A stretch of 64,000 bases of DNA from Shinella kummerowiae (GTDB lineage: Bacteria > Pseudomonadota > Alphaproteobacteria > Rhizobiales > Rhizobiaceae). Numbering within the stretch: the stretch's first letter is position 1; every line of letters starts with the position of its first letter. The stretch is from positions 1-64,000 of the forward strand of contig NZ_WUMK01000015.1 of the NCBI RefSeq assembly GCF_009827055.1. Reading direction: 5' to 3'. Below are positions 25,703 through 48,742 of this stretch, piece by piece. The notes beneath the pieces were generated by a model. The model did not search any database, had not been told where the DNA came from, and saw only the letters and a program-made list of their open reading frames with translations. The position numbers and the translations under genes are program-made.

Positions 25703-26374
25703 TCACGAGCGAAACAGCCTGGTGGTCAGCGTCTCATGTTTGAGGCTGGCAATATCGGCTCGCACGGTGGCGGAGCCGAGGTCATCGAGCGTCGAGCGGG
25801 CGGCCGCGGCGGCGAACGCGAGGATCCGAGCCTCCAGCCCGGCAAGTGTTGCCACGCCGTCGCGCTGGCCGATGACGCTGCAGCGGATCGCAACGGAGAC
25901 AAGATTGGAGGCGACCGCATGGAGATAGGCCGCAAGCGCCGTCTCGGCGGCAATGCCATGCCCGCCTGAAACCGCACCGACCGCGATCGGATAGGCGGCC
26001 GCCTCGCCAAGCGTGGCCAGCACCGCATGCGGCCAACCTGCCGCGGCGGCAAGAAAAGCCTCGCCCTGCAGCATGGTCTCGCGATGGCGCTCCGCCGAGC
26101 CCGAGAGGGCTTCCGCAAGGGCCGCAACGGCGGCAAGCCGCTCAGCATCTTCGACGGAGCGGTGCGCTTCCGCAAAGAGCACCGCATCGTTCCAGAGCGC
26201 GCCGTGCGCCAAAAGGCTCGCGAGCCAATCTCGAAGAGTGCCCGCATCGCGGACATCGCCATCGGCCACCGCCTGCTCCAGCCCGCCGGAATAGGAGAAG
26301 GCCCCGACAGGAAAGGCCGGCGAGAGCCAGGTCATCAGCCGGACCAGCGCTTCGGGCGAGGCCGTCTCAGCCAT
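25703..26374 (-). CDS. ureF: Urease accessory protein UreF
   Basis: A protein of 223 aa. UreF helps UreG and UreD deliver nickel and CO2 to the UreABC apoenzyme. Family features are [20 protein letters not shown] near the N-terminus, [20 protein letters not shown] and, near the end, [20 protein letters not shown]. The ATG overlaps the last 8 bp of ureE. It is the last gene of the operon: only 41 bp separate its stop from a convergent Crp/Fnr gene, so the usual downstream ureG is absent. Confidence 0.93.
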
Positions 26375-26843
26375 GGTTATGGTTGTGATGCCCGTGGTCG
26401 TGACCGGCACTGTGATAGGCGCCCCGCACCGGATGGAATGGTTCGGAAACATCCCGAACCAGAGCGCCGAGTCCGACCAGCATGTCGCGGATCACGTGGT
26501 CACGCAGGATGAGGATGCGCCCCTCCTCGATCTGGGCCGTAAGATGTCGGTTGCCGAGATGCCAGGCGAGTTCGACGAGATGCAGGCGGTCTTTCGGCGC
26601 CACTTCGTAAAGCTCTTCCTCTGCGGCGATCACCTCGACAACCTCCCCCGTCTCGGTGAGCAACAGGTCACCGTGGGCAAGCTGCACCGGCGCCTTCAGG
26701 TCGAGCATCACCACGTCGTCATGCTGCATGTGCAGGAGCTTGCGGCGCACGTGGCGCTGATCGTGCGTCAGCACGACGACGTCGATGGGCGTGCGATCTC
26801 CGCCGGTACCGTGCGGCAGGATTTCCGTTGAGCGATAGGGCAA
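26367..26843 (-). CDS. ureE: Urease accessory protein UreE (nickel metallochaperone)
   Basis: A protein of 158 aa starting at TTG with GAGGTC 5 nt upstream. The N-terminal peptide-binding domain is followed by the nickel-binding domain ([36 protein letters not shown], then [12 protein letters not shown]). The His-rich tail [15 protein letters not shown] stores nickel. The tail ends within the ureF start. An upstream gene on the same strand, a GGDEF protein, separates it from ureC. Confidence 0.93.
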
Positions 26844-26947
26844 GGCGACCTCGGGTGTCGATGGATGAGTCCTGCCGAGAAAAGCATGTTTGCCTGGCCA
26901 AGGAAACCGTCGAAGCGATGGACTACGTCATTTGTCGTAGGCAAGAC

Positions 26948-27781
26948 TTAGCGCCGACGCCCGCCATTGGCGACCCGGCGGCTCGGCGCGAGCAGGCCGT
27001 CACCCTCATCCTCATGGGTCGCCCGGTCGCGGCCGAGCGACTTTGCAAGATAGAGCGCCCGGTCCGCCGCCTCGAACATCGCCTCGAACATCCGGTCCGC
27101 GGGCCGGTCGGCGATCCCCGCCGACAATGTGACGGCGACGACGCCATGGGCGGTCTCGACACGCCGTGCGGCGACCGATCGGCGCACCTCTTCGACTAGC
27201 AGGCCGCAGTCGCCACGGTCGTCGTTCTGGAAGAACACGGCGAATGCCGAGCCCCCAAAGCGCCCGACAAGATGCGGTGGCGAAAAGACCCGCGCCAGTT
27301 CCTCCGCGACAGCGACAAGGACCTCGTCGCCAGCCGCATGGCCATACCCGTCATTGACGGACTTGAAACGATCGATATCGAACAGCACGAAGAAACCGTT
27401 AACGCTGCGGCCCGCCAGTTCCTCGATGAAAGCCGGGCGGTTCAAAAGGCCGGACAACGGATCGAGCCGGCTCAACCGCTCGAATTCGGCGCGCGACAGC
27501 GAAATCTCATGGATCGCCATGCCAAGCAGCCAGGCCAAGAGCGCCAGGACGCTTGCCGAAATCAGCACTGTCGTCGACGCGCCGAAGTTGAGCGCAACGG
27601 GGAAAGAATGGGTCGAAAGGTTGAAATTCACGAGGATTGCCGCGCCCATGAGATAGGCCGCCGTGGCAAGCGTGATCGTCACCAGAACGGTGTTCAACAC
27701 GAACATGGAAATGTCGGCTCGCGTCTGGAACACACCCACCTCCCACTGGGCCCTTATCCATAGGGCCACCCTGCCTCGCAT
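26948..27781 (-). CDS. Membrane GGDEF-domain protein with degenerate active site
   Basis: A protein of 277 aa from an ATG with GGAGAGA just upstream; earlier in-frame starts reach 27802. Two membrane segments (about 25-52 and 65-92: FVLNTVLVTITLATAAYLMG, TVLISASVLALLAWLLGMA) precede a GGDEF fold (DPLSGLLNRPAFIEELAG, FVLFDIDRFKSVNDGYGHAA). The signature loop at 176-180 reads GGSAF rather than GGDEF, and the RxxD inhibitory site is missing (SPPH). It is probably not an active diguanylate cyclase; it may bind GTP or c-di-GMP, or act as a partner protein. It lies in line between ureC and ureE, with gaps of about 100 bp on both sides. Confidence 0.85.
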   Translation of the reverse strand: MRGRVALWIRAQWEVGVFQTRADISMFVLNTVLVTITLATAAYLMGAAILVNFNLSTHSFPVALNFGASTTVLISASVLALLAWLLGMAIHEISLSRAEFERLSRLDPLSGLLNRPAFIEELAGRSVNGFFVLFDIDRFKSVNDGYGHAAGDEVLVAVAEELARVFSPPHLVGRFGGSAFAVFFQNDDRGDCGLLVEEVRRSVAARRVETAHGVVAVTLSAGIADRPADRMFEAMFEAADRALYLAKSLGRDRATHEDEGDGLLAPSRRVANGGRRR

Positions 27782-27881
27782 CATTCTCTCCATCATCAGC
27801 AAAGGGACACTACGCCACTTTCTTTCAGACTCCGATAATGCGTTCGCTAGAAGTTTAACTGTCCCGTTTTGACGCGCGCCC

Positions 27882-29588
27882 TTAGAAGAGAAAATAGCGC
27901 TGCGCCATCGGCAGCACGGTTGCAGGCTCGCATGTCAGAAGCTCGCCATCGGCCCGCACCTCGTAGGTCTCCGGGTCCACCTCGATATGCGGCGTCAGGT
28001 CGTTCAGGATCATCGAGGCCTTGGAGATTGCGCGTGTGTTGCGCACCGGCAGCAGCTGCTTGGCGACGCCAAGGCGCTCCCGCAGGCCAAGATCGATCGC
28101 CGCCTGCGAGACGAAGGTGACGGACGAATTGGTGCGCATCTTGCCGAAGGCCCCGAACATCGGACGATAATGCACCGGCTGCGGCGTCGGGATCGAGGCG
28201 TTCGGGTCGCCCATCGGCGCCATGGTGATCGTTCCGCCAAGCAGCACCATATCGGGCTTCACTCCGAAGAAGGCCGGGTTCCACAGCACGAGATCCGCCC
28301 GCTTGCCCACTTCGATCGAGCCGATCTCGTGACTCAGTCCCTGGGCGATGGCGGGATTGATCGTGTATTTCGCGATATAGCGGCGGATGCGCAGATTGTC
28401 GTTGTCGCCCGTCTCGCCGGCAAGCCGGCCGCGCTGGCGCTTCATCTTGTCCGCCGTCTGCCAGGTGCGGATCGCCACCTCACCGACGCGTCCCATGGCC
28501 TGGCTGTCGGAGGAGATGATCGAGAAGGCGCCGATATCGTGCAGGATATCCTCCGCCGCGATCGTCTCCTTGCGGATGCGGCTTTCGGCAAAGGCGATGT
28601 CCTCGGGAATCGAGGAGGACAGGTGATGGCAGACCATCAGCATGTCGAGATGCTCGGCGATCGTATTGACCGTGTAGGGGCGCGTCGGATTCGTCGACGA
28701 TGGAATGACGTTCGAGTGGCCACAGACCTTGATGATATCCGGCGCATGTCCGCCGCCTGCCCCTTCCGTGTGGAAGGCATGGATCGTGCGGCCTTTGATG
28801 GCGTCTATCGTGTCCTCTACGAAGCCGCTTTCGTTGAGCGTATCCGTATGGATCATCACCTGCACATCGTATTCGTCGGCAACGGAAAGGCAGCAATCGA
28901 TCGCCGCCGGCGTCGTGCCCCAATCCTCGTGCAGTTTCAGCGACGAGGCGCCGGCCTTCACCATCTCGACGATCGGCGCAGGCAGCGAGGCATTGCCCTT
29001 GCCGGCGAGCGCCAGGTTCATCGGGAAGGCATCGAAACTCTCGATCATGCGCTCGATATGCCAGGCGCCCGTGCAGGTCGTCGCCAGCGTGCCATGCGCC
29101 GGGCCGGAACCGCCGCCGAGCATCGTGGTGATGCCGCTGACCAGCGCCTCCTCGATCTGCTGCGGGCAGATGTAATGGATATGCGCATCCATGCCGCCGG
29201 CCGTGAGGATCTTGCCTTCCCCCGCGATCACCTCCGTCGAGGGGCCGACGATGATGGTGACGCCCGGCTGCGTATCCGGGTTTCCGGCCTTGCCGAGCGC
29301 AGCGATACGCCCGTTCTTCAGGCCGACATCCGCCTTGAAGATCCCGCTATGGTCGATGATCAGCGCATTGGTGATGACGGTATCGACGGCACCTTCGGCA
29401 CGCGTCGCCTGGCTCTGTCCCATGCCGTCGCGGATGACCTTGCCGCCACCGAACTTCACCTCGTCGCCATAGGTGGTGAAATCCTTCTCCACCTCCGCGA
29501 AGAGTTCCGTATCGGCAAGACGCACCTTGTCTCCGGTGGTCGGGCCGAACATGCTGGCATAGGCGGCGCGGGACATTCTGTATGACAT
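27882..29588 (-). CDS. ureC: Urease alpha subunit
   Basis: The catalytic subunit of 568 aa, full family length, which hydrolyses urea to ammonia and carbamate. Nickel and active-site residues are in place: the HxH in [13 protein letters not shown], the carbamylated Lys of [12 protein letters not shown] with its following His, and the His of [13 protein letters not shown]. The flap runs [20 protein letters not shown] (catalytic His), and the Asp ligand is in [11 protein letters not shown]. The ATG follows CCGGGGAACCGCATC. The upstream neighbour is a GT29-like urease-operon protein and the downstream neighbour is a GGDEF protein. Confidence 0.96.
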
Positions 29589-29618
29589 GATGCGGTTCCC
29601 CGGGAGGCAGGTGTTGTT

Positions 29619-30239
29619 CTAGCTGTCGAGACGATCGAGATGGCCGGCGGCGATCAGCGCATTGACCCAGCGCCGCTCCGCGGCGAAGGGATGCCATTGC
29701 CAACCCTGGTGGCCGAAGCCGGCGATGGAAATGCGGTCACCCTGTTCGGCAACGTTTTCGAGGACATGGGCGATGGCGATGAGCCCGGAACTCGGCACCA
29801 CATAGGGCGTCGGGTCATAGGCCTTGAGCGCGGCATCGACCGCATGGTGAACGGAGGCCGGAATTCTTCCCAATTTCCGGCCGGTGGCCTCCGCGAAGGT
29901 TTCAAAACCGATCGTGTAGTCATCGCAGAAATCGTCGAGGTCCGGATGGCTTTGCGCAAGGACGCCACGCATTGCGGCAAACACCTCCGAGGTGCGCACG
30001 CACCAGATTTCCTGCGCCTGCCGCACGGTCTCGCTCGCCTTCCAGCGCCCGCCGGCCAGCATATCCAGCGCTGGCCGGCCGGTGTTGCAGGCCGCGATCA
30101 CATCCGTCTTGAAACCGCCGCGCCCCGCCGAACGGCAGAGGTTGAAGCGGATCACCATATTGGCGGAATCGATCACTCCGGCCAGCCCCTCCGGGATGTC
30201 GCCATTGCCGACGATGACGATCCTGCGCGACACCGGCAA
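29619..30239 (-). CDS. Urease operon accessory protein, sialyltransferase (GT29)-like
   Basis: A protein of 206 aa with no signal peptide. Rhizobial urease loci often carry this ORF under the name urease operon accessory protein. The sequence carries the layout of GT29 sialyl motifs. A motif-L-like block (IVIVGNGDIPEGLAGVIDSA, then NMVIRFN at about 27-33, followed by FKTDVIAACNTG) is followed by motif-S-like PSSGLIAI at 149-156. A final H-x4-E (H183, E188 in HPFAAE) matches motif VS. A CMP-sugar-dependent transferase fold is suggested; a role in urease maturation is unknown. It is 30 bp upstream of ureC and 4 bp downstream of an LprI-like gene. Confidence 0.75.
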   Translation of the reverse strand: MPVSRRIVIVGNGDIPEGLAGVIDSANMVIRFNLCRSAGRGGFKTDVIAACNTGRPALDMLAGGRWKASETVRQAQEIWCVRTSEVFAAMRGVLAQSHPDLDDFCDDYTIGFETFAEATGRKLGRIPASVHHAVDAALKAYDPTPYVVPSSGLIAIAHVLENVAEQGDRISIAGFGHQGWQWHPFAAERRWVNALIAAGHLDRLDS

Positions 30240-30243
30240 CCCC

Positions 30244-30675
30244 TCAGTTTTCCTGCTCGTAGACGGTCTTCAGTTCGGCCGTGCGCTTGCGCGTGAGATC
30301 GGCGAGGCAACCGGAAACCAGCATCGGCTCCATCGAACCGCCGCGCGCCTCGAACCCCGCCAGCTCGCACTGGCCGTCGCGATAGCCGATCCACGATCGC
30401 TGGGCGCGCTTCAGCGCATCGACGGCGCCGACATAGTGCTCGCCCATCTCCTTGGCCTGCACATCCATTTCACGGGCCGCCGCCATCGCCTTCTTGTAGA
30501 CGGCGTTGAGTTCCGTGTCGGCCGCCTGGTAGTCGCGACCGGCGCAGATGTTCATCTCGATTTGCGCCATGGCATTGTCGCAATCGACCTCCGGCTCGCC
30601 ATCCTGCGCCGAGGCGAAAGAGGCGGACATGAAAACCGCGGCGAAGGCGAGCAGAACACGGAGGGGAAAAACCAT
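30244..30675 (-). CDS. Secreted LprI-like (DUF1311) protein
   Basis: A protein of 143 aa with a signal peptide (FPLRVLLAFAAVFMSASFAS, cut near AQDGEP). The mature domain has the four-cysteine LprI/DUF1311 pattern: VDCDNAMAQIEMNICAGRDY, then AQRSWIGYRDGQCELAGFEA and a last Cys in LVSGCLADLTRKRTAEL. LprI proteins inhibit lysozyme in mycobacteria; the rhizobial role is unknown. The ATG lies 1 bp after ureB, so it is in the urease transcript although its product is periplasmic. Confidence 0.85.
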   Translation of the reverse strand: MVFPLRVLLAFAAVFMSASFASAQDGEPEVDCDNAMAQIEMNICAGRDYQAADTELNAVYKKAMAAAREMDVQAKEMGEHYVGAVDALKRAQRSWIGYRDGQCELAGFEARGGSMEPMLVSGCLADLTRKRTAELKTVYEQEN

Positions 30676-30676
30676 G

Positions 30677-30982
30677 TCAGAGTTTCCCCATCACACTCTG
30701 GCGGAAACCATAGACCTCCCGCTTGCCGGCGAAGGGAACGAGACGCACCGTCCGCGTCTGTCCCGGCTCGAAGCGTACGGCCGTGCCGGCCGGGATATCG
30801 AGCCGCAGGCCCCGCGTCGCCTCGCGGTCGAAGGAAAGCCCGGAATTCGTCTCATAGAAATGATAGTGGCTGCCGACCTGGATCGGCCGGTCGCCGGTGT
30901 TGGAAACGTCGAGCGTGGTGACCGGCAGGCCGGCATTCAGTTCGAGGTCGCCGGTGGCCGTGATGATTTCACCCGGGATCAT
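30677..30982 (-). CDS. ureB: Urease beta subunit
   Basis: A protein of 101 aa, full length for the separate beta subunit. Typical stretches are [58 protein letters not shown] and the end [12 protein letters not shown]. It packs with UreA and UreC in the (ABC)3 enzyme. It starts 7 bp after a DUF1272 zinc-binding gene. Confidence 0.96.
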
Positions 30983-30989
30983 GTCTTCC

Positions 30990-31244
30990 TCACGCAGCTT
31001 CCGCCGGCCCGCAGCCTTCGGCTTTCAGGACCCGCTTGGTGGATGGCGGATATTTCGCAAGCAGGACGGCAGGCCGCACCGGCCGGCGCGCGAAGTCGCC
31101 GCCGCAGTTCGGGCAGGTGCCGCCAAGAACCGTGGTCACGCAATCGGCGCAGAACGTACATTCGAAGGTGCAGATCATCGCCTCCCGGCTGTCCGGCGGC
31201 AGATCGCGATCGCAACATTCGCAGTTGGGTCGAAGGTCGAGCAT
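30990..31244 (-). CDS. DUF1272 zinc-ribbon protein
   Basis: A protein of 84 aa. Its cysteines form zinc-ligand pairs: [16 protein letters not shown], then [11 protein letters not shown] and [19 protein letters not shown]. This is the small DUF1272 family. The C-terminal part ([17 protein letters not shown]) is basic. The gene lies 4 bp after ureA and 7 bp before ureB, so it is firmly inside the urease operon. Its function is unknown; a metal-handling role alongside nickel insertion is only a guess. Confidence 0.85.
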
Positions 31245-31248
31245 GGTC

Positions 31249-31551
31249 CTACCTTATCGGTTCGTGCACGGTCACGAGTTTCGTGCCATCGGGAAACGTC
31301 GCTTCCACCTGGATGTCGTGGATCATTTCGGGGATGCCCTCCATGACCTGGTCGCGACTGATGACATGCGCACCCGCCTCCATCAGATCGGCAACGGACC
31401 GGCCGTCGCGCGCGCCTTCCACCACAAAGTCGGTGATGAGCGCGATGGCTTCGGGATGGTTGAGTTTCACGCCGCGCTCCAGCCGCTTGCGCGCCACGAT
31501 CGCCGCCATGGCGACCAGCAACTTGTCTTTTTCGCGGGGAGTGAGGTTCAT
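31249..31551 (-). CDS. ureA: Urease gamma subunit
   Basis: A protein of 100 aa, full length. It shows the family text [40 protein letters not shown], and [20 protein letters not shown] ending VTVHEPIR. It follows ureD after 21 bp, the standard ureDA start of rhizobial urease operons. Confidence 0.97.
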
Positions 31552-31572
31552 CGGCGATCCATCGCTTTGTTC

Positions 31573-32388
31573 TTACAGTGTCCAGACTTTCGGCACGCTC
31601 GCGCCATTACGCAAGTGCGAAATGACCGGGATGAGTTTTTTTCTGAGCGCGAACCCGTCGGCCGCAACGACGCGGGCAACGAGCTTGTCCTGCCAATGGC
31701 TGACCCAGCCCTCGGCCGCCTCCAGCAGCCGGCGCAACGGCTCCAGATGCGCCTCGGCATTGCCTCCACAGAACAGCACCGTCGCGAAGGCGCGCCCACC
31801 GGCAAGCACCGCCCGTTCCTCCGTTAAGCCAGCGACATCGCCGGTGAAGCACGCTTCCTCGGCATGAATCAGCTTGCCAGCGCGGCGGATGCGCCAGCGG
31901 TCGCGAAACAGCCCCGTCTCCATCCTTTCGCCCATGGCCTTGCGGCCGAGCAGGATGGCCTCGACGGCGAGGAAGGTCGCGTCATGGGCGAGGTCCACCT
32001 CCAGCCTGCGGCTCAGTGAGGAGCGGTCGAAAAGAATGGTTTCCTGCGGCAGCCAGTCCGCCCGCGCCCCGGCACCAACAGTAATTCGGGTCTCGACCGT
32101 CGCGGTGAAGGCGCTTGCCTTGTAGGCACGCTCACAGGCCTGGGTGGTCGCGGTCAGGTGCGTGCCGCTGGCGACATCGAAGGTCCAGTCGATATGATCG
32201 CCGCCCGTCAGGCCACCGGCCGTGTTGATGAGAACGGCCTCCATCGTGCCGTCGAAACTGCGCGGCAGGCGGATCTTGGCGCAGCCTTCCTGATAGAAGG
32301 TGTGGAGCCGGGTCCGGCCGCCGAACGGTTTCGTCGCAAGCCGGCCGGTTCCTCGGGCCCTTTGCGCCTTCTGTTGTGCTGCGGTCAC
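31573..32388 (-). CDS. ureD: Urease accessory protein UreD
   Basis: A protein of 271 aa starting at GTG with GGAGAGGGGACGC upstream. UreD scaffolds the UreDFG complex on apo-urease for nickel insertion. Family features are [51 protein letters not shown] and [20 protein letters not shown]. The last motif holds the W-L-P-Q-E-T-I box of the family. The esterase gene ends 23 bp upstream, so transcription probably enters from there or from urtA. Confidence 0.94.
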
Positions 32389-33538: not shown

Positions 33539-34234
33539 TTATACTGTCAAATGCCGGCGCGCTTCCGGTGTGTCAAGCGTTTCGGCCGCACCCTCGTGAA
33601 CAATTTCTCCCCGGTCCATGATATAAACGTGATCGGCAAGCTCCCGGCAAAAATCAAGATATTGTTCTACAAGCAGAATTGCCATGCCCGTCGAATCCCG
33701 CAGGTATTTGATCGCCCGGCCGATATCCTTGATGATCGACGGCTGGATACCTTCGGTCGGCTCGTCGAGCACGAGGATTTTCGGCCGCGTGACCAGCGCC
33801 CGGCCGATCGCCAATTGTTGCTGCTGCCCGCCGGAAAGGTCGCCGCCCCGCCGGCCGAGCATGGTTTGCAGCACCGGAAAGAGGCTGAAGATTTCGTTCG
33901 GAATGAAGCGGTCCGAACGCTTCACCGGCGCATAACCGGATTCGAGATTCTCCTTCACCGTCAGCAACGGAAAGATCTCACGGCCCTGCGGCACATAGCC
34001 GATGCCCTGCCTGGCGCGGTTATAGGGCGCCAGGCCGTCGAGCTTCACGTCGTTGAAAACGACGCTACCGGAAGAGAGCGGATGTTGGCCGCTAATCGCG
34101 CGTAGCAGGCTCGACTTGCCGACGCCATTGCGGCCGAGCACGCAGGTGATCTTGCCCATCTCCGCGTTCAGCGAAATGCCGCGCAGCGCCTGTGCGGCAC
34201 CGTAATGGAGATTGGCTTTTTCGACGGTCAGCAT
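33539..34234 (-). CDS. urtE: Urea ABC transporter ATP-binding protein UrtE
   Basis: An ATPase of 231 aa of the LivF type. Walker A is GRNGVGKSSLLRAI, the signature is DLSGGQQQQLAIGRAL, and Walker B is ILVLDEPTEGIQPSI. The UrtE-typical LHYGAAQALRGISLNAEMGK is at the start. It is the last gene of urtABCDE, starting 4 bp after urtD. The esterase gene follows after 89 bp. Confidence 0.94.
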   Translation of the reverse strand: MLTVEKANLHYGAAQALRGISLNAEMGKITCVLGRNGVGKSSLLRAISGQHPLSSGSVVFNDVKLDGLAPYNRARQGIGYVPQGREIFPLLTVKENLESGYAPVKRSDRFIPNEIFSLFPVLQTMLGRRGGDLSGGQQQQLAIGRALVTRPKILVLDEPTEGIQPSIIKDIGRAIKYLRDSTGMAILLVEQYLDFCRELADHVYIMDRGEIVHEGAAETLDTPEARRHLTV

Positions 34235-34238
34235 GGCC

Positions 34239-35003
34239 TCATCTCCCCAGATAATTCTCGATGACCTTCTGGTCGGCGCTGACGAAGTCGATCGAGCCTT
34301 CCGCCAGAACAGAGCCCTCCGCGAGGCACGTCACCTTCACGCCGAGATCGCGGATGAAGCCCATGTCGTGTTCGACGACGACGACGGAGCGGGTTTTTGC
34401 GATCTCCTTCAGCAGGACCGCTGTTTCCGCAGTCTCCGCGTCCGTCATGCCGGCAACGGGTTCGTCGACCAGCAGGAGTTCCGGCTCCTGCGCGAGCAGC
34501 ATGCCGATCTCCAGCCATTGTTTCTGCCCGTGGCTGAGATTGGCCGCAAAATCGTCCTTGCGGTTGGTCAGGCGCACGGTCGAGAGAATCTCCTCGATAC
34601 GCGCCCTGTCCTCGGCCGTCAGACGATAGAACAGCGTGGAAAAGACACCACGCTTGCGGTTGAGCGCCAGTTCCAGATTGTCCCACACCGTGTGGCTTTC
34701 GAAGACCGTGGGTTTCTGGAATTTGCGACCGATGCCAAGCTGGGCAATCTCCGCCTCGTCCTTCTGCGTAAGATCGATCGAGCCCTTGAAGAACACTTCG
34801 CCCGAGTCCGGCCGCGTCTTGCCGGTGATGATATCCATCATCGTCGTCTTGCCGGCACCGTTCGGGCCGATGATGGCGCGCAGTTCGCCGGGCTCGATGA
34901 CGAAGGACAGCGAATTCAGGGCCTTGAAGCCATCGAAGGAGACGGAGACGCCGTCGAGATAGAGGATGCTGTTGGGTTTGGTATTACCAACGAGGGTGTT
35001 CAT
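34239..35003 (-). CDS. urtD: Urea ABC transporter ATP-binding protein UrtD
   Basis: An ATPase of 254 aa of the LivG type. Walker A is GPNGAGKTTMMDII, the signature is NLSHGQKQWLEIGMLLAQEP, and Walker B is LLLVDEPVAGMTDAE. The insertion with EILSTVRLTNRKDDFAANLS is usual for UrtD. I chose the ATG with GGAGTGA 6-8 nt upstream; a GTG nine bases earlier overlaps the urtC stop and is equally usable. Confidence 0.94.
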   Translation of the reverse strand: MNTLVGNTKPNSILYLDGVSVSFDGFKALNSLSFVIEPGELRAIIGPNGAGKTTMMDIITGKTRPDSGEVFFKGSIDLTQKDEAEIAQLGIGRKFQKPTVFESHTVWDNLELALNRKRGVFSTLFYRLTAEDRARIEEILSTVRLTNRKDDFAANLSHGQKQWLEIGMLLAQEPELLLVDEPVAGMTDAETAETAVLLKEIAKTRSVVVVEHDMGFIRDLGVKVTCLAEGSVLAEGSIDFVSADQKVIENYLGR

Positions 35004-35008
35004 GCCGG

Positions 35009-36175
35009 TCACTCCGCCGCCTGGGGTTCTGCCGCAGCCGCAAAGGTGCGCGCGTCTTCGGCCTCCCGCGCCTTGCGGTATTCCTTGCGCCGCTCGACGA
35101 ACTGCCGTGCCGTGCCAACAATGCCCTTGGGCAGGAAGAGTGTGACGAGTACGAAGAGGCCGCCAAGCGCGAAGAGCCAGAATTCCGGGAAAGCCGCAGT
35201 AAAGATGCTCTTTCCGCCATTGACGAGGATGGCGCCGACGATCGGCCCGATCAGTGTGCCGCGCCCGCCGACCGCCGCCCAGATGACGACTTCGATCGAG
35301 TTGGCCGGATCGAATTCACCCGGATTGATGATGCCGACCTGCGGCACATAGAGCGCGCCGGCAATGCCTGCCATCATGGCGGAAACAACGAAGGCGAAGA
35401 GCTTCATGTGTTCGACGCGGTAGCCGAGAAAGCGCGTGCGGCTTTCGGCATCGCGCACCCCGACGAGGATCTTGCCGTATTTAGAGCGCACGATGCCCGA
35501 GGTGATGATCAGCGAAAGGGCGAGCGCTATGGCCGAGGCCGCAAAGAGCGCGGAACGGGTGCCGTTTGCCTGGATATTGAAGCCCAGAATATCCTTGAAA
35601 TCGGTGAGGCCGTTGTTGCCGCCGAAGCCCATGTCGTTGCGGAAGAAGGCAAGCAGCAGGGCAAAGGTCATGGCCTGGGTGATGATCGACAGATAGACGC
35701 CGTTGACGCGCGAGCGGAAGGCGAACCAACCAAAGACGAAGGCGAGCAGGCCGGGCACGACGACCGCCATCAGGGCGGCGAACCAGAACATGTCGAAGCC
35801 GTACCAGAACCAGGGCAATTCCTTCCAGTTGAGGAAGACCATGAAGTCCGGCAATAGCGGGTTGCCGTAGGAGCCGCGCGCGCCGATCTGGCGCATCAGG
35901 TACATGCCCATGGCATAACCACCGAGCGCGAAGAACGCGGCGTGGCCGAGCGAGAGAATGCCGCAGAAGCCCCAGACGAGATCGAGCGCCAGCGCCAGCA
36001 GCGCATAGGTCAGGTACTTGCCGAACAGCGAGACGATATAGGTCGGCACGTGCAGCGGATGGTCCGATGTCGTCAGCAGGTTGAGCGCCGGAACGAGAGC
36101 AGCGAGCACCAGCAGAATCGCGACGGCGATGACGATGTTGCGCCCGAGCGCCTTGGCGAGAAACGACGTGATCAT
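35009..36175 (-). CDS. urtC: Urea ABC transporter permease UrtC
   Basis: A permease of 388 aa of the LivM class with about ten membrane segments. UrtC features are YALLALALDLVWGFCGILSL, GHAAFFALGGYAMGMYLMRQ, NNGLTDFKDILGFN and the end LFLPKGIVGTARQFVERRKE. It overlaps urtB by 4 bp (ATGA). It forms the channel with UrtB. Confidence 0.93.
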   Translation of the reverse strand: MITSFLAKALGRNIVIAVAILLVLAALVPALNLLTTSDHPLHVPTYIVSLFGKYLTYALLALALDLVWGFCGILSLGHAAFFALGGYAMGMYLMRQIGARGSYGNPLLPDFMVFLNWKELPWFWYGFDMFWFAALMAVVVPGLLAFVFGWFAFRSRVNGVYLSIITQAMTFALLLAFFRNDMGFGGNNGLTDFKDILGFNIQANGTRSALFAASAIALALSLIITSGIVRSKYGKILVGVRDAESRTRFLGYRVEHMKLFAFVVSAMMAGIAGALYVPQVGIINPGEFDPANSIEVVIWAAVGGRGTLIGPIVGAILVNGGKSIFTAAFPEFWLFALGGLFVLVTLFLPKGIVGTARQFVERRKEYRKAREAEDARTFAAAAEPQAAE

Positions 36176-37803
36176 GCTTCCACCGCCCGTCCCTTGAGTG
36201 CGAAGAGCCCGCGCGGCCGCTTCTGGATGAAGAGGATGATGAGCACGAGCACAAGGATCTTGCCGAGCACGGCACCGGCATAGGGCTCGAGGAACTTGTT
36301 GAGGATGCCAAGCGTGAAGGCGCCGACCAGCGTGCCCCAGAGATTGCCGACACCGCCGAAGACCACGACCATGAAGCTGTCGATGATGTAGCCCTGGCCA
36401 AGGTTCGGCGAGACGTTGTCGATTTGGCTCAGCGCCACGCCGGCAATGCCCGCAATGCCGGAGCCGAGCGCAAAGGTCAGCGCGTCGACCCAGGGCGTCC
36501 GGATACCCATCGAAGAGGCCATGCGGCGGTTCTGCGTGACAGCACGCATCTGCAGGCCCATCGGCGTCTTCTTCAGGAGGAAGAGCAGGAAGGCGAAGAC
36601 GGCGAGCGAGAAGACGATGATCCAGAGCCGGTTCCAGGTGACGGTGAGGCCGCCAAGTTCGAAGGCGCCGGACATCCAGGACGGGTTACCGACCTCCTGG
36701 TTCGTCGGGCCGAAGATCGAGCGCACGGCCTGCTGCAGGATCAGCGAAACGCCCCAGGTGGCGAGCAAGGTTTCGAGCGGCCGGCCATAGAGGAAGCGGA
36801 TGATGCCGCGCTCCATGACGAGACCGACTGCGCCAGTGACGAGGAAGGCAAGCGGCAGCGCGATCGCCAGCGACCAGGCGAAGGCGTCGGGATAGGAATT
36901 GCGGATGATCTCCTGCACCACGAAGGTGGTGTAGGCGCCGAGCATGACCATCTCGCCATGTGCCATGTTGATGATGCCCATCACGCCGAAGGTGATGGCA
37001 AGCCCGATTGCCGCGAGCAGCAGCACCGAGCCGAGCGACAGGCCGTACCAGATATTCTGGCCGGCGGCCCAGAGCGCAAGCTGGTCCTCGATCTGCTGGA
37101 TGCCGGTCTCGATATCCGGCCGCAGGCTTTCATCGGCAGAAGAGAGAGCGCCGGAAAGCAGCGACAGCGAATCCCGCCCGCCGGTCTGGACGACGGTGGC
37201 GATGGCGGCCTTCTTCTCCTCCACAGGCCGGTCGGACACGAGGACGGAAGCTGCGCGGGCTTTTTCGAGCACGGCCTTGACCGCGCTGTCCGTTTCACCG
37301 GCAAGCGCCGCATCGAGGCCTTCGAGAGAATCGGCGGATGGCGTGCGCAGGATTGTCTGCGCTGCCTGGAGGCGAACGCCTGCATCAGGGCTCATCAGCG
37401 TCAGGCCGCCGAGTGCGGCGCGGATCACGCGGCGCAGCCCGTTGTTGACCTTGACCTTTTCGAGCGCCGCCTTGGCTTCCTCGCCGGCCGCATCTCCCGT
37501 CAGGGCGTCGACGAGTTTGAAGTTGGAACCGGCCGGCTTGACGATGAAGACCATGCCGTCGGATTTGCGCTGGTAGAGATCCCCTTCGGACAATGCCTCA
37601 AGCGCCGGAACGATCTTCGGATCACCCGTCTTGGCGAGCGCCTCGACCTGTTTCTGGTTTTCCTGGAAACTGCCGCCGCCGAGCGCGTTGACCATGGTGC
37701 GCAGGTCGTCCGCCGCGCGCAGGTCCGTCGCGAGCACCGTCACCACCACGCAGAAGGCGATGAGCAGGCATTGCAGGAAACGATGGATGAGGCGCGTGGG
37801 CAT
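36172..37803 (-). CDS. urtB: Urea ABC transporter permease UrtB with long periplasmic N-terminus
   Basis: A permease of 543 aa of the LivH class. The ATG with CCGAGGACATGAG upstream opens a signal-like helix (CLLIAFCVVVTVLATDLRAA). About 220 residues of soluble, HEAT-like helical sequence follow (KTGDPKIVPALEALSEGDLY, then QAAQTILRTPSADSLEGL). Next comes the permease core of about 290 residues (GLSLGSVLLLAAIGLAITFG, NMAHGEMVMLGAYTTFVVQE). UrtB of proteobacteria commonly has this extension while LivH does not. The longer open frame that runs on to 38427 crosses a repeat and urtA and is not real. Confidence 0.9.
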   Translation of the reverse strand: MPTRLIHRFLQCLLIAFCVVVTVLATDLRAADDLRTMVNALGGGSFQENQKQVEALAKTGDPKIVPALEALSEGDLYQRKSDGMVFIVKPAGSNFKLVDALTGDAAGEEAKAALEKVKVNNGLRRVIRAALGGLTLMSPDAGVRLQAAQTILRTPSADSLEGLDAALAGETDSAVKAVLEKARAASVLVSDRPVEEKKAAIATVVQTGGRDSLSLLSGALSSADESLRPDIETGIQQIEDQLALWAAGQNIWYGLSLGSVLLLAAIGLAITFGVMGIINMAHGEMVMLGAYTTFVVQEIIRNSYPDAFAWSLAIALPLAFLVTGAVGLVMERGIIRFLYGRPLETLLATWGVSLILQQAVRSIFGPTNQEVGNPSWMSGAFELGGLTVTWNRLWIIVFSLAVFAFLLFLLKKTPMGLQMRAVTQNRRMASSMGIRTPWVDALTFALGSGIAGIAGVALSQIDNVSPNLGQGYIIDSFMVVVFGGVGNLWGTLVGAFTLGILNKFLEPYAGAVLGKILVLVLIILFIQKRPRGLFALKGRAVEA

Positions 37804-38030: not shown

Positions 38031-39323
38031 TCAGGACCCCTTGCCGCCGCACTTGCCGGTGGCGACGTTGAAATTGCCGCACGACATCGGCGCACGCCAA
38101 TCGGCGATCAGATCCTTCGAGTCGGGCAAGAAGTCCGACCATTCGTCGCCGACCACGAGGCCGGGGGTTTCCCAGACGGTCTCGAACTGGCCGTCGGCCT
38201 GGATTTCGCCGATCAGCACGGGCTTGGTGATGTGGTGGTTCGGCATCATGGTGGAGAGGCCGCCCGAGAGATTCGGCACGGAGACGCCGATCATCGCGTC
38301 GAGCACGGCGTCCGTATCCGTCGTGCCGGCCTTTTCTACGGCCTTCAGCCACATGTTGAAGCCGATGTAGTGCGCTTCCATCGGGTCGTTGGTGACGCGT
38401 TTTTCGTTCTTGGTGAAGGCCTTCCACGTCTTGATGAACTCGGCATTCGACGGGTTGTCGACGGACTGGAAGTAGTTCCAGGCAGCCAGGTGGCCGACGA
38501 GCGGCGTCGTATCGAGACCGGCCAGTTCCTCTTCGCCGACCGAGAAGGCGACAACCGGAATGTCTTCGGCCTTGACGCCCTGGTTGCCGAGTTCCTTGTA
38601 GAAGGGAACGTTGGCGTCGCCGTTGATGGTCGAGACGACGGCGGTCTTCTTGCCGGCCGAGCCGAACTTCTTGATGTCGGAGACGATCGTCTGCCAGTCG
38701 GAATGGCCGAACGGCGTGTAGTTGATCATGATGTCCTCGGGCTTCACGCCCTTGGAGATCAGATAGGCTTCGAGAATCTTGTTGGTCGTGCGCGGATAGA
38801 CATAGTCGGTGCCGGCGAGAACCCAGCGCTCGACGCCTTCGTTCTCGGCGAGATAATCGACGGCCGGGATTGCCTGCTGGTTCGGCGCAGCCCCGGTATA
38901 GAACACGTTGCGCTGGCTTTCTTCGCCCTCGTACTGGACGGGGTAGAAGAGGATGGAATTCAGCTCTTCGAAGACCGGCAGCACGGATTTGCGCGACACG
39001 GAGGTCCAGCAGCCGAACACGGCCGAGACCTTATTGACCGATACCAGTTCGCGTGCCTTTTCAGCAAAGAGCGGCCAGTCGGAGGCCGGGTCAACGACGA
39101 CGGCTTCGAGCTTCTTGCCGAGAAGACCGCCCTTCTTGTTCTGCTCATCGATGAGCATCAGCATGGCATCCTTGAGCGTCGTCTCGGAGATGGCCATAGT
39201 GCCGGAAAGCGAATGCAGGATGCCGACCTTGATCGTGTCGTCGGCTGCGAAAGCGCCGTGGAAGGCGGTTGTCGAGAGAATGGCTGCAAGCAATGCGCCG
39301 GTGGCGCGCGCCTTGATGGACAT
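38031..39323 (-). CDS. urtA: Urea ABC transporter substrate-binding protein UrtA
   Basis: A periplasmic protein of 430 aa. The signal peptide is ATGALLAAILSTTAFHGAFA, cut before ADDTIKVG. Diagnostic UrtA blocks are ILHSLSGTMAISETTLKDAM, AVFGCWTSVSRKSVLPVFEE, NSILFYPVQYEGEESQRNVF and GTDYVYPRTTNKILEAYL, ending with a Cys-containing CGNFNVATGKCGGKG. The ATG follows GAGGGGTTCCGAC. It opens the urea uptake/urease block and is divergent from the NCS1-kinase gene across 348 bp. Confidence 0.95.
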   Translation of the reverse strand: MSIKARATGALLAAILSTTAFHGAFAADDTIKVGILHSLSGTMAISETTLKDAMLMLIDEQNKKGGLLGKKLEAVVVDPASDWPLFAEKARELVSVNKVSAVFGCWTSVSRKSVLPVFEELNSILFYPVQYEGEESQRNVFYTGAAPNQQAIPAVDYLAENEGVERWVLAGTDYVYPRTTNKILEAYLISKGVKPEDIMINYTPFGHSDWQTIVSDIKKFGSAGKKTAVVSTINGDANVPFYKELGNQGVKAEDIPVVAFSVGEEELAGLDTTPLVGHLAAWNYFQSVDNPSNAEFIKTWKAFTKNEKRVTNDPMEAHYIGFNMWLKAVEKAGTTDTDAVLDAMIGVSVPNLSGGLSTMMPNHHITKPVLIGEIQADGQFETVWETPGLVVGDEWSDFLPDSKDLIADWRAPMSCGNFNVATGKCGGKGS

Positions 39324-39419
39324 GTCGGAACCCCTCTAGTTCTTTTTTTGACCGCAACGGGGCGGAAGCTTTTTTACCGTTGCTTAACAAACTATCGGAC
39401 AGCGATGCTGCGCTGCACA

Positions 39420-39436
39420 TACGTCATTCTACGTAG
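39420..39436. promoter_or_regulatory. Candidate operator dyad in the urtA/NCS1-kinase divergent region
   Basis: TACGT-CATTCT-ACGTA is an inverted repeat with 5-bp arms (39420-39435). It overlaps the 8-bp palindrome CTACGTAG (39429-39436). It lies about 100 bp upstream of urtA. It could be a binding site for the LuxR-type response regulator encoded at 43.0 kb, but no experimental motif supports this. The rest of 39324-39671 holds one REP-like palindrome and otherwise unassigned promoter DNA. Confidence 0.3.
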
Positions 39437-39671: not shown

Positions 39672-42600
39672 ATGGCCGCACGCCAGCGCATCATACCGAT
39701 CCGCCGCGAATACAATCGCTGGGTCGCCAACCAGACGCTGGAAGACTATGCGCTGCGTTTCACGGCCAAGAGCGCGCGGCGCTTTTCATCCGACCGCATC
39801 TCGCAGACCGCCATCGGCGCCATCTCCTTCCTCGCGCTCGAGGCGATCGGCGGCGCGATCACCATGTCCTATGGCACGACGAATGCCATCGTCGCGATCA
39901 TTGTCGCCAGCCTGATGATCCTGCTGGTCGGCCTGCCGATCAGCCGCTACGCCATCCGCCACGGCGTCGACATCGACCTTTTGACCCGCGGCGCGAGCTT
40001 CGGCTATATCGGCTCGACGCTGACCTCGCTGATTTATGCGAGCTTCACCTTCATCCTCTTCGCCATCGAAGCCTCCATCATGTCCGGCGCGCTGGAGCTG
40101 GCGCTCGGCATCCCATTGTGGATCGGCTACATCATCTCGTCCGTCGTGGTGATCCCCCTCGTCACGCACGGCGTGCAGCTCATTTCGCGCTTCCAGCTCA
40201 TCACCCAGCCGTTCTGGATCGTGCTCAACATCCTGCCTTTCGTCTTCATCGCCTTCGCGGACTGGGAAAAGGTCGGCGAATGGCTTGCCTATTCCGGCCT
40301 GCACCACGCCTCCGGCCCACCCGGCACCTATGCGCCCTTCAACCTGCTCGAGTTCGGCGCGGCCTCCGCCGTCATTTTCGCGCTGATGGCGCAGATTGGT
40401 GAGCAGGTCGATTTCCTGCGCTTCCTGCCGCCGGACGGGCAGCGCAAGCTGCATCATCGCATCGCCGTGTTCCTTGCCGGCTCCGGCTGGGTCATCGTTG
40501 GCGCGCCAAAACTGATTGCCGGGTCGTTCCTCGTGGTGCTGGCGCTATCGGCCGGCGTGCCCTCCACCCGGGCTGCCGATCCGGCGCAAATGTATTACAC
40601 CGCCTTCGGCTACATGCTGCCGTGGGATATGGCCGCCCTGTTGCTGATGGTCGCCTTCGTGGTGGTCTCGCAGCTCAAGATCAATGTGATGAACGCCTAT
40701 GCGGGTTCACTCGCCTGGTCGAACTTCTTCTCGCGCCTGACCCACAGCCATCCCGGCCGTGTCATCTGGCTCGTCTTCAACGTGGCGATCGCGCTGCTGC
40801 TGATGGAGCTCGGCATCTACCGGCTGCTGGAGGAAACGCTGGGCGTCTTCTCGATCGTCGCCATGGCCTGGCTCTGCACGATCTCGGCCGATCTCTTCCT
40901 CAACAAGCCGCTCGGCCTGTCGCCGCCGGGTATCGAGTTCAAGCGCGCCCATCTCTATGACATCAACCCGGTCGGCCTCGGCGCCATGACGCTCTCGGCG
41001 ATCATCGCGCTCACCGCCCATTTCGGCACCTTCGGCGAAATCCCCGCCTCGCTGGCGCCCTACATCGCCGCCGTCGTCGCCTTCATCGCCTCTCCCGCCA
41101 TCGCCTGGGCGACCGGCGGCAAATATTATCTGGCGCGAAAACCCCGGAAGAGCTGGGCACAGCAGCAGTCCATCACCTGTTCGATTTGCGAACACCCCTT
41201 TGAGCCGGAAGATATGGCGTGGTGCCCGGCCTATGCCGCGCCGATCTGCTCACTCTGCTGTTCGCTCGACAGCCGCTGCCACGACCTCTGCAAGCCGAAG
41301 GCCCGCTTCAACGCACAGGTGGCAGCTGTCGCAAAAACCATCCTGCCGGCACCGGTAACGGCGGCGCTCGGCACGCGCCTCGGCCGCTACGGCATTGCCA
41401 CGGCGCTTTCCATCACCAGCATGGGCATCATCCTTGCGATGATCGCCCATCAGGTCGGCACCGGCTCGCCGGAGACGGCCACCGTGGTGGAACGCACCAT
41501 CGCCATCGTGTTTTTCGTCTTTGCCGTGGTGGCCGGCATCGTCTGCTGGTTTTATGTGCTGGCACATGACAGCCGGGTCGTCGCCGAGGAAGAATCCTCG
41601 CGCCAGACCACACTGCTCCTCAAGGAAATCGCCGCGCACAAGAAGACCGACGCGGCCCTCCAGCAGGCAAAGGAAACGGCCGAGGCCGCCAACCGCGCCA
41701 AGAGCCGCTACGTCGTCGGCCTTAGCCACGAGCTGCGCACCCCACTCAATGCCGTGCTTGGCTACGCGCAGGTGCTGGAGCGCGACGAGAGCATCCCGCC
41801 GCAGCGTCAGGGCGCGATCCGCGTCATCAAGCGCAGCGCCGACCACCTCTCCGGGCTGATCGACGGCCTGCTGGATATTTCGAAGATCGAGGCCGGCAAG
41901 CTGCAGGTCTATTCGAACGAGATCAACATCCACGAATTCCTCGACCAGATCATCGAGATGTTCCGTCCGCAGGCCCAGGCGAAAGGCGTGGCCTTCGAGC
42001 ACAGCCGCTCCGCCAGTCTACCGCAATATGTGCGCACCGACGAGAAACGCTTGCGCCAGATCCTCGTCAACCTCATCTCCAATGCGATGAAGTTCACCGA
42101 TAGCGGCCGCATCTCGCTCGATGTCCTCTATCGCAGCCAGGTCGCGACCTTCACCGTCGCCGACAGCGGGCGGGGCATCCTCGAAAAGGACCTGCCGCGC
42201 ATTTTCGAACCCTTCCAGCGCGGCGATGCCGAACATGGCCGCATGCCGGGCCTCGGTCTTGGCCTGACCATCACCCGGCTGCTCACCCAGACCCTCGGCG
42301 GCGAAATTTCGGTGAAGAGTGAACGCGACAGGGGCACGGAGTTCAAGGTGCGCCTCATGCTCTCGGCGGTTGACCGCCCGACCGCGCCGAAGATATTGCA
42401 TATCAAGGGTTACAGCGGACCGCGGCGGACCATCCTCGTCGTGGACGACAATGCAGACCACCGCAATCTGATGGAGGAGGTGCTGCGTCCGCTCGACTTC
42501 ATCGTTCTGACGGCTCGAAGCGCCGCGGATTGCCTCTCCCTCATCGAGGGTGTGAAGCCCGACCTGTTCTTGATCGACATTTCCATGCCCGGCATGAGCG

Positions 42601-43043
42601 GCTGGGAACTGGTGGAACGGCTGCGCATTCTCGGGCAATCCAGCCCGATCATCATGCTCTCGGCCAATATCGGAGACGGCTCCGCTTCCGCCCAGAACGG
42701 CCACAACGACACGCTGGCAAAACCCTTCGACATCCGCCAGCTTGCCGACAAGCTTGCTTTGCATATGCGGCTCGATTGGGTCTACCAAGGCCAAACGGCA
42801 GCGAAGGAACCCGAAAAGGCAGCCATCATCATTCCGGCGGAGAGCCATGTGCAGGAATTGATACGGCTTGGCGAAATCGGTTATGTGCGCGGTATCGAGG
42901 CGAAGCTTGCCGAGATCGCCCGCACGCCCGAACACCAGCCGTTCACCGATGCGGTGCGCGCCTATGTGCAGGCTTTCGACCTTTCCGGTTACGATGCCTT
43001 CCTGAAGACCATGGACCCACAAGAGGACGCTGCCCGTGACTGA
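39672..43043 (+). CDS. NCS1 nucleobase transporter-hybrid histidine kinase fusion
   Basis: A membrane protein of 1123 aa. Residues about 24-480 are a full NCS1 (cytosine/purine/hydantoin permease) domain of about twelve helices (DRISQTAIGAISFLALEAIG, LLTRGASFGYIGSTLTS, QLKINVMNAYAGSLAWSNFF). Eight cysteines at 503, 506, 518, 526, 529, 530, 536 and 540 form a zinc-ribbon-like linker. Two more helices (about 574-593, 608-631) and a coiled coil lead to HisKA with H686 (SHELRTPLN). HATPase follows (G box GLGLGLTI near 860), then a receiver with D925, D926, phospho-acceptor D969 and K1017. The helical tail (about 1055-1120) is not an obvious Hpt. It probably senses a nitrogen compound and signals to the overlapping response regulator. 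Confidence 0.92.
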   Translation: MAARQRIIPIRREYNRWVANQTLEDYALRFTAKSARRFSSDRISQTAIGAISFLALEAIGGAITMSYGTTNAIVAIIVASLMILLVGLPISRYAIRHGVDIDLLTRGASFGYIGSTLTSLIYASFTFILFAIEASIMSGALELALGIPLWIGYIISSVVVIPLVTHGVQLISRFQLITQPFWIVLNILPFVFIAFADWEKVGEWLAYSGLHHASGPPGTYAPFNLLEFGAASAVIFALMAQIGEQVDFLRFLPPDGQRKLHHRIAVFLAGSGWVIVGAPKLIAGSFLVVLALSAGVPSTRAADPAQMYYTAFGYMLPWDMAALLLMVAFVVVSQLKINVMNAYAGSLAWSNFFSRLTHSHPGRVIWLVFNVAIALLLMELGIYRLLEETLGVFSIVAMAWLCTISADLFLNKPLGLSPPGIEFKRAHLYDINPVGLGAMTLSAIIALTAHFGTFGEIPASLAPYIAAVVAFIASPAIAWATGGKYYLARKPRKSWAQQQSITCSICEHPFEPEDMAWCPAYAAPICSLCCSLDSRCHDLCKPKARFNAQVAAVAKTILPAPVTAALGTRLGRYGIATALSITSMGIILAMIAHQVGTGSPETATVVERTIAIVFFVFAVVAGIVCWFYVLAHDSRVVAEEESSRQTTLLLKEIAAHKKTDAALQQAKETAEAANRAKSRYVVGLSHELRTPLNAVLGYAQVLERDESIPPQRQGAIRVIKRSADHLSGLIDGLLDISKIEAGKLQVYSNEINIHEFLDQIIEMFRPQAQAKGVAFEHSRSASLPQYVRTDEKRLRQILVNLISNAMKFTDSGRISLDVLYRSQVATFTVADSGRGILEKDLPRIFEPFQRGDAEHGRMPGLGLGLTITRLLTQTLGGEISVKSERDRGTEFKVRLMLSAVDRPTAPKILHIKGYSGPRRTILVVDDNADHRNLMEEVLRPLDFIVLTARSAADCLSLIEGVKPDLFLIDISMPGMSGWELVERLRILGQSSPIIMLSANIGDGSASAQNGHNDTLAKPFDIRQLADKLALHMRLDWVYQGQTAAKEPEKAAIIIPAESHVQELIRLGEIGYVRGIEAKLAEIARTPEHQPFTDAVRAYVQAFDLSGYDAFLKTMDPQEDAARD

Positions 43044-43959
43044 AACGGCCACTCCGCGCGATATCGTCCTCATTGTCGACGACTCCCCCGAAGCGCTTGG
43101 CTTTCTGACCGAAGCGCTGGAGCAATCCGGCTTTTCCGTGCTGATCGCCACCTCCGGCGCCTCGGCGCTGAACATTGTCGACCGCATCACGCCGGACATG
43201 ATCCTGCTCGACGCCGTCATGCCCGGCATGGACGGGTTCGAGACCTGCCAGCGCCTGAAGGCCAACCCGGCGGCAAGCCCCGTGCCCGTCGTCTTCATGA
43301 CCGGGCTGACCGAGACAGAACATGTCGTGCGGGCGCTCGAGGCCGGCGGCGTCGACTACCTCACCAAACCGATCAACATCGATGAGCTGCGTGCCCGCAT
43401 CCGCGTGCATCTCACCAATGCCCGCTCCGCCCAGAGCGCCCGCGTGGCATTGGACGCGGCGGGCCGGCACCTGCTGGCCGTGAGTGGCGAGGGCAAAATC
43501 CGCTGGTCGACGCCGCAGGCGACACGCCTCGTCAATGCCGCAACCGGCAGCGATGAAGGCCTCGACGCGGTATCGGCGCATATCCGCACCTGGATGAAGA
43601 CCCGCGAGCGGCCGGGCATGGCGCGCGACACCACGTTCACCATCCGGCAGGCGGGCCAGGCGAGCCTGCAACTCTCCTTTCTCGGTGCGATCGGTGCGGA
43701 CGAGTATCTTTTCCGCCTGACCGCGGAGAACCGGCTGTCCGACGACGAGATCCTGCGCCAGCATTTTTCGCTGACCCAGCGCGAATCCGAAGTGCTGCTG
43801 TGGATCGCCAAGGGCAAGGCAAACCGCGATATCGGCGAAATCCTGGGGCTGAGTTCACGCACCGTCACCAAGCATCTCGAACAGATCTACGTGAAGCTCG
43901 GCGTCGAGAACCGCGCATCCGCGGCCGTAAAGGCAGCCCACGTCCTCCACGAAGTCTGA
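43036..43959 (+). CDS. LuxR-type response regulator partner of the NCS1 kinase
   Basis: A regulator of 307 aa. The receiver (residues 9-125) has D15, D16, phospho-acceptor D59 (ILLDAVMPGMDG) and K111. A middle region of about 110 residues (LLAVSGEGKIRWSTPQATRL) looks like a degenerate PAS-type sensor. The C-terminal LuxR helix-turn-helix is FSLTQRESEVLLWIAKGKAN with EILGLSSRTVTKHLEQIYVK. The GTG start overlaps the kinase stop by 8 bp, so the two are co-translated. The divergent urtABCDE-ure block is the obvious target; this is inferred from position only. Confidence 0.9.
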   Translation: MTETATPRDIVLIVDDSPEALGFLTEALEQSGFSVLIATSGASALNIVDRITPDMILLDAVMPGMDGFETCQRLKANPAASPVPVVFMTGLTETEHVVRALEAGGVDYLTKPINIDELRARIRVHLTNARSAQSARVALDAAGRHLLAVSGEGKIRWSTPQATRLVNAATGSDEGLDAVSAHIRTWMKTRERPGMARDTTFTIRQAGQASLQLSFLGAIGADEYLFRLTAENRLSDDEILRQHFSLTQRESEVLLWIAKGKANRDIGEILGLSSRTVTKHLEQIYVKLGVENRASAAVKAAHVLHEV

Positions 43960-45168: not shown

Positions 45169-45280
45169 ATTATTACTCCCAAATTTATAGCGGGTTCGTT
45201 TCAACCGGTCGCAACACCCGCATTCATTGCGCCGATATCGCTATGCCCGCAGCCGAGGACCGGCTGCGGCGTTCCCTTTG

Positions 45281-45625: not shown

Positions 45626-45728
45626 TTTCTTATCTCCCCTACAGCGCTGCGCGTCATGCCATGATGCGCAAAGGTCGCTGTAACTTCTTACATCTGCACA
45701 GGGTCCCAGAGAATCCTGTGCGCCCGCC

Positions 45729-48738: not shown

Positions 48739-48742
48739 TTAA

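Follow-up and report, generated by a model that had tools for sequence, protein, structure and literature searches.

Which signal does a histidine kinase read when it is joined to a transporter-like membrane domain and encoded divergently from the genes of urea uptake? The question is posed by a locus of Shinella kummerowiae within the first 64,000 nucleotides of contig NZ_WUMK01000015.1 (hereafter the window; host genome 6.34 Mb). Here a gene encoding an NCS1-type transporter fused to a hybrid histidine kinase (39672..43043, plus strand) is followed by a gene for a LuxR-type response regulator and is divergent from urtABCDE, the genes of a urea ATP-binding cassette (ABC) transporter. A preliminary description of the locus had proposed a transceptor that senses urea or a urea-yielding nitrogen compound and switches the urt and urease genes. 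In the present analysis the fused protein is probably a transceptor for urea or short-chain amides that controls urtABCDE and amide genes through its LuxR-type partner. We strongly infer the regulatory link from the kinase pair to the urt genes, as a candidate operator tracks the kinase among genomes; the proposed control of urease is reduced to an indirect one, and the range of compounds sensed is narrowed.

Architecture, spread and membrane domain of the fused kinase

The fused protein is read from a single open reading frame of 1123 residues with an ATG start, all of its domains lying on the plus strand. An NCS1-type membrane domain (residues ~20–490; 39729..41141) is followed by a possibly metal-binding module of eight cysteines (C503–C540; 41178..41291). 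Two extra hydrophobic segments (residues 573–638; 41388..41585), preceded by a weaker one in the hydropathy profile, lead from this module to the kinase, in which Pfam identifies HisKA (residues 677–742; 41700..41897), HATPase_c (residues 789–897; 42036..42362) and a receiver domain (Response_reg, residues 921–1028; 42432..42755). The phospho-acceptor H686, the receiver aspartate D969 and cysteines 503, 506, 518, 526, 529, 530, 536 and 540 were read directly. H686 is present in 59/59 and D969 in 56/59 diverse fused sequences, consistent with a hybrid kinase. These three were the only domains returned by Pfam at E 0.01, with no PAS domain before the kinase.

The regulator of 307 residues (43036..43959, plus strand, GTG start) overlaps the kinase frame by 8 bp. 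It is of the NarL/LuxR type, with Response_reg at residues 11–123 (Pfam, 3.4e-30), a GerE helix-turn-helix at 245–300 (2.3e-18) and a likely phospho-acceptor at D59. The preliminary description had given the single frame, cysteine linker, H686, HATPase, D969, 8-bp overlap and divergence from urtABCDE and urease in these same terms, and all were borne out by the open reading frames, Pfam and direct reading. By a simple open reading frame test, a LuxR-type partner stands beside the kinase in 123 of 139 loci, and the nearest named relatives are from Shinella, with 94–97% identity over residues 1–643.

A 643-residue query at E 1e-3 gave a match in 63 of 398 sampled Pseudomonadota genomes, some of these being distant permeases only, and a free-standing relative used as query at E 1e-60 gave a match in 52 of the 398. 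All 57 places listed at the latter threshold lie inside open frames of at least 894 residues, i.e. fused genes, and the fusion is therefore not a chance arrangement. Fifty-six regions were fetched, picked for diversity among the matches, and 53 hold a fused gene; urt-type, urease or formamidase genes were found by tblastn in 51 of the 53, formamidase matches in 39. The two exceptions are a 4.8-kb contig (L196) and a truncated gene (L203). The kinase gene is divergent from true urtABCDE in Rhizobiaceae and a few others, and from UrtA-like (36–41% identity) BCDE genes with formamidase in most other regions and on a Klebsiella IncFIB plasmid; elsewhere it is divergent from ureA (e.g. in Mitsuaria) or downstream of urease. 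In the 82 close loci (L039–L120), urtA is within reach of the kinase in 73. The preliminary description had staked its reading on conservation of this neighbourhood, and adjacency to urt, urease or amide genes is indeed kept in relatives. The nine annotated regions around free-standing relatives hold urease in three (two from Klebsiella), formamidase or amidase in four and neither in two.

Klebsiella accounts for 342 of the 543 plasmid records with a match. On one of these, a K. pneumoniae IncFIB plasmid (L121), the system adjoins urtABCDE and formamidase, and the exact operator discussed below is present. A Klebsiella urt/formamidase cluster has been described without a sensor in a work on lineages studied for urinary-tract tropism, the main text of which contains no occurrence of 'histidine kinase' or 'two-component' (PMC13060141), and urtABCDE beside formamidase has been proposed to carry formamide (partial text of PMC13209695).

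The preliminary description had also spoken of a full NCS1 domain. The kinship to NCS1 held through a relative and through profile–profile comparison; a direct family match did not, as neither PF02133 nor any other Pfam family matched the window membrane domain even at E 10. A search of the PDB likewise gave no convincing match to this domain, weak matches to G proteins being taken as chance. A free-standing relative beside a Klebsiella urease operon is 40.8% identical to the window domain (tblastn) and itself matches PF02133 with E 1.1e-9 (38.1 bits, cut-off 23.5). A profile built from 41 fused domains aligned by hhalign to NCS1 proteins of relatives with a probability of 97.6 and E 3.1e-12 over 384 columns, against a probability of 0.2 and E 0.3 for SSF/SLC5 proteins. 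On this difference the domain is best assigned as a remote NCS1 member and not as SLC5. An SLC5 assignment was ruled out by the same profile comparison and by Pfam, with no SSF match in the window protein and no PF00474 match in its own genome.

Through this remote homology the substrate pocket could be compared with that of Mhp1, whose residues were located via the chain numbering of the structure record, conservation being counted over the 59 diverse fused sequences. Mhp1 W117 and W220, which we take to form the substrate-stacking aromatic bracket, correspond to L129 (Phe in 54/59) and L238 (Leu in 58/59). Q121 is replaced by E133 (Glu in 58/59, the remaining one a gap), and N318 is retained as the invariant N341 (59/59). 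The Mhp1-type sodium site appears not to be kept, because S312 and T313, presumably the sodium-site hydroxyls, align to K336 and I337. The absence of both tryptophans and of these hydroxyls speaks against a nucleobase/sodium carrier of the classical kind. The pocket residues are common to the fused domains and the free-standing permeases. Residues dividing formamidase-type from urt/urease-type kinases (e.g. 402 and 139) do differ but may track clades, and a claim of specificity based on them was dropped.

All eight cysteines of the linker are invariant in 59/59 diverse (window included) and 80/80 close fused sequences; sequences below 850 residues, including the disrupted L119 and L203, were left out of this alignment, in which L042 and L120 are one record. 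Among eight free-standing relatives, C503 is found in all eight, C506, C526 and C529 in five, C518 in two, and C530, C536 and C540 each in one. A free-standing relative from Methylovirgula has all eight and ends soon after them. The module seems to predate the fusion, since free-standing relatives hold its cysteines. Its identification as a named domain was rejected, as the similarities to zinc fingers were short and weak.

The candidate operator and the urtA promoter

Between the two divergent transcription units lies TACGTCATTCTACGTA (39420..39435), a candidate operator of the palindromic form TACGTCA-NN-TGACGTA, 97 bp before urtA. When as much as 450 bp upstream of the kinase was scanned in 59 non-redundant loci, TACGYN6RCGTA was present in 27 of them, against 0.06 in mononucleotide shuffles; allowing one mismatch raised these figures to 35 against 1.84. 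Across 66 loci (1.298 Mb) there are 41 exact sites, all before urea/amide genes or the kinase. A script placed 39 of them at most 700 bp upstream of UrtA, FmdA or the kinase, and the annotation of L245 places the other two 96 bp before a formamidase and 142 bp before an aliphatic amidase. The site stands 88–116 bp before formamidase in L158, L165 and L166, and remains with urtA in L115, L118, L187 and L189, where the kinase is not its neighbour. In L312, an unannotated Acinetobacter baumannii record, a single exact operator lies between the kinase gene and a divergent free-standing permease gene, ~104 bp upstream of the start that alignment predicts for the permease.

Among close relatives the site precedes urtA in 71 of 73 loci (one record, L042 = L120, being counted twice), including those with the kinase kilobases away, and 66 times at a distance of 91–100 bp; L060 and L073 have urtA without it. 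Two sites lie elsewhere in these 73 loci and another in L067, with no urtA in reach. The window's own genome has five exact sites, of which the other four fall within stop-free frames of 299–625 codons.

For comparison, 40 genomes in which the searches gave no fused kinase (G311 having weak permease matches only) were searched for UrtA. This gave 28 genes in 26 genomes, 27 of them usable, with starts set by tblastn and L308 excluded for having 25 bases upstream. The exact operator precedes none of these 27 kinase-lacking urtA genes, three of which have a one-mismatch match farther upstream. It lies within 250 bp before kinase-associated urtA in 70 of 72 close and 27 of 40 other cases. The reverse holds for sigma-54-type sites (at least 10 of 12 positions), which precede 23/27 kinase-lacking urtA genes (shuffle mean 0.26) and none of the kinase-associated ones (0/72 close and 0/40 other, or 0/112). 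These counts are not independent, because the close loci and several control genomes, from one genus, are phylogenetically redundant; the operator and promoter pattern is, however, found again in distant classes and on plasmids.

A -10-like GATAGT (39391..39396, minus strand), largely conserved in 69 aligned promoters, begins 23 bp past the window operator, so that the operator centre lies ~34 bp upstream of it. Activators often sit at about this distance from a -10 box, and the position would fit an activator. Upstream of the kinase gene itself, sigma-54-like sites (at least 10 of 12) were found in 20/60 representatives compared with 0.53 in shuffles. This is a tendency only, because the reverse strand too carries such a site in 8/60, and the region upstream of the window kinase scores 7 of 12. 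The sites suggest a possible shift of nitrogen control onto the sensor gene in some clades.

The aligned promoters also contain an inverted repeat in the urtA leader, GCAACGG...CCGTTGC (39354..39383, minus strand). The best stem is GCAACGG/CCGTTGC in 31 of the 69 and GCAACAG/CTGTTGC in 13, a compensatory change; the pattern occurs in 48/69 close relatives compared with 0/27 kinase-lacking urtA leaders and has no match in Rfam.

Proposed mechanism and competing explanations

Transporter domains fused to histidine kinases are known from other families. CrbS/CrbR (acetate) and RpuS/RpuR (pyruvate) are SLC5/STAC kinases with LuxR-type partners; an imperfect inverted repeat is required at CrbR-activated promoters, and RpuS/R controls the symporter MctP (partial texts of PMC5715377 and PMC9100948). 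The window kinase resembles them in joining a transporter domain to a hybrid kinase, in its LuxR-type regulator and in its inverted repeat, and the operator before a paralogous permease in L312 recalls RpuS/R and MctP. It differs in its NCS1-type domain, the lack of a detected PAS domain, its urea/amide genes and the repeat itself, and the eight-cysteine module holds the place of the STAC linker. CbrA/CbrB of Pseudomonas also has a transceptor fused to a histidine kinase, in this case with SLC5, STAC and PAS domains and transported histidine (partial texts of PMC13022988 and PMC7096432), and the Kuenenia ammonium sensor/transducer joins another nitrogen-compound transporter domain, Amt, to a histidine kinase (partial text of PMC5764959). 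Among the papers listed by literature searches that covered few subscription journals, none described an NCS1-type histidine kinase or a comparable urea two-component system.

In the proposed mechanism, the ligand bound, and perhaps transported, by the NCS1-type domain would be urea or a short-chain amide, for example formamide. Movement driven by the ligand would pass through the eight-cysteine module and the two hydrophobic segments to the HisKA/HATPase kinase, and phosphate from H686 would be handed to D59 of the co-translated regulator, with the fused receiver (D969) acting as a sink or an intermediate. The phosphorylated regulator would bind TACGTCA-NN-TGACGTA before urtA and activate a sigma-70-type promoter, and in relatives would also bind the operator before formamidase, aliphatic amidase or a free-standing permease. 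Substrate-specific control would thus replace the sigma-54-type, presumably NtrC-dependent, urtA promoter of kinase-lacking relatives.

On balance, we lean towards the view that this is an apparently undescribed class of NCS1-type/eight-cysteine transceptor kinases, the dedicated sensor of urea and short-chain amides in many Pseudomonadota, which defines a novel NCS1 subfamily carrying urea or amides, has taken urtA from NtrC/sigma-54 by clean promoter replacement and also occurs on Klebsiella plasmids beside a urea transporter linked to urinary-tract lineages. With this system, NCS1 joins SLC5 and Amt among the transporter folds known in kinase transceptors, and 'cytosine/allantoin permease' genes beside ureases are predicted to encode urea/amide carriers. 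Regulator, candidate operator and target genes form one testable package, and the urt/formamidase cluster of the Klebsiella lineages mentioned above gains a likely regulator (partial text of PMC13060141).

Sensing need not reside in the NCS1 domain, because in CbrA, whose SLC5 domain transports histidine, the kinase works without that domain and histidine has no significant effect on it (partial text of PMC7096432). A CbrA-like protein, whose NCS1 domain is mainly a transporter tuning the kinase while the signal is cytoplasmic (nitrogen or carbon state, or metal or redox via the cysteine module), would agree with the eight invariant cysteines and with the pocket residues shared with free-standing permeases, which suggest transport competence. 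We consider it unlikely, although deserving of some weight, as the neighbours and operator-bearing genes are urea/amide-specific and not general nitrogen or carbon genes, and kinase-free members of the transporter subfamily lie mostly in the same pathways (7/9 regions). A classical NCS1 ligand (nucleobase, allantoin or hydantoin), sensed as a precursor of urea, is very improbable. NCS1 kinship and the database labels 'cytosine/allantoin permease' speak for such a ligand, as do a distant Paracoccus relative (26%) that follows hydantoinase/oxoprolinase genes and a pair of such genes that one Shinella locus has ~3 kb past the kinase. However, both stacking tryptophans of Mhp1 are replaced (W117 by Phe or Leu, W220 by Leu), an invariant Glu stands at Q121, seven annotated fused-gene regions showed no further gene for purines, allantoin or hydantoin, and formamidase is matched in most of the fetched regions. 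The urea/short-chain-amide neighbours and the replacement of both tryptophans favour urea- or formamide-like ligands over uracil or allantoin.

The sign of control is unreadable from sequence, and with the operator near the promoter the regulator, or its phosphorylated form, could instead repress urtA until ligand relieves repression. This is distinctly unlikely given the distance of the operator from the -10-like box, the lack of a consensus -35/-10 pair and the activating role of CrbR, the LuxR-type partner of an SLC5 kinase (partial text of PMC5715377). That the palindrome belongs to another regulator, the kinase pair being merely a neighbour, is hardly credible, since the site tracks the kinase (71/73 compared with 0/27), also in distant classes and on the Klebsiella plasmid; the predicted pairing of regulator and operator and the 26/60 representative kinase loci with no exact site in the fetched stretch leave it some room. 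This last count also weighs against urea/amide control through the LuxR-type partner, together with the following observations. The 26 include most urease-linked loci and three receiver-less variants, and betaproteobacterial urease-adjacent loci have no exact operator, apart from two in which a site precedes a distant urtA. In nine of the 82 close loci the fetched stretch lacks urtA, one of these loci being on a 7.3-kb contig. Variants L191, L192 and L202 have neither receiver nor LuxR-type partner. A scan for the sigma-70 consensus found no promoter at urtA, and a structure prediction from 68 sequences, all at least 83% identical, was poor (predicted local distance difference test score 47) and was not used; viral contigs yielded no sequences to widen its alignment.

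Neighbouring genes and variant loci

The urt genes lie on the minus strand in the order urtA (38031..39323; TIGR03407, 568 bits, cut-off 492.75), the permease genes urtB (36172..37803, likely start at 37803; TIGR03409) and urtC (35009..36175; TIGR03408), and the ATPase genes urtD (34239..35012; TIGR03411) and urtE (33539..34234; TIGR03410), each of the five proteins exceeding its NCBIfam cut-off. The urease block ureD-A-B-C-(GGDEF)-E-F (25703..32388, minus strand) was assembled from tblastn, open reading frames and Pfam, with UreC, UreB, UreA, UreD and UreE identified by tblastn and UreF by Pfam. Control of urease by the kinase pair would be only indirect, because the ure genes lie downstream on the urt strand and a single imperfect site stands before ureE. 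This operator-like site, TACGTCATTTGTCGTA (26924–26939), has one mismatch and is found ~80 bp upstream of the ureE frame. It comes shortly after a gene for a diguanylate cyclase (GGDEF; 26948–27802, minus strand), which is placed between ureC and ureE. A gene resembling extracellular polyhydroxybutyrate/polyhydroxyalkanoate depolymerases, below the family cut-off, occupies 32412–33524 (minus strand) between urtE and ureD.

Among the variant loci, L191, L192, L202 and L311 encode shorter proteins of ~880 residues, with formamidase near all four; in L202 the gene after the kinase encodes a receiver-kinase-type protein, and in L311 the kinase diverges from formamidase and a gene of the AmiS/UreI family. 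In Sinorhizobium (S.) meliloti Ak57 pSymA (L119) the kinase match is split in two pieces, indicating a disrupted gene, and L203 is truncated, G050 yielding partial matches only. In the window itself, a second ABC cluster, of the branched-chain amino-acid type (44050–49735, minus strand), directly follows the regulator gene.

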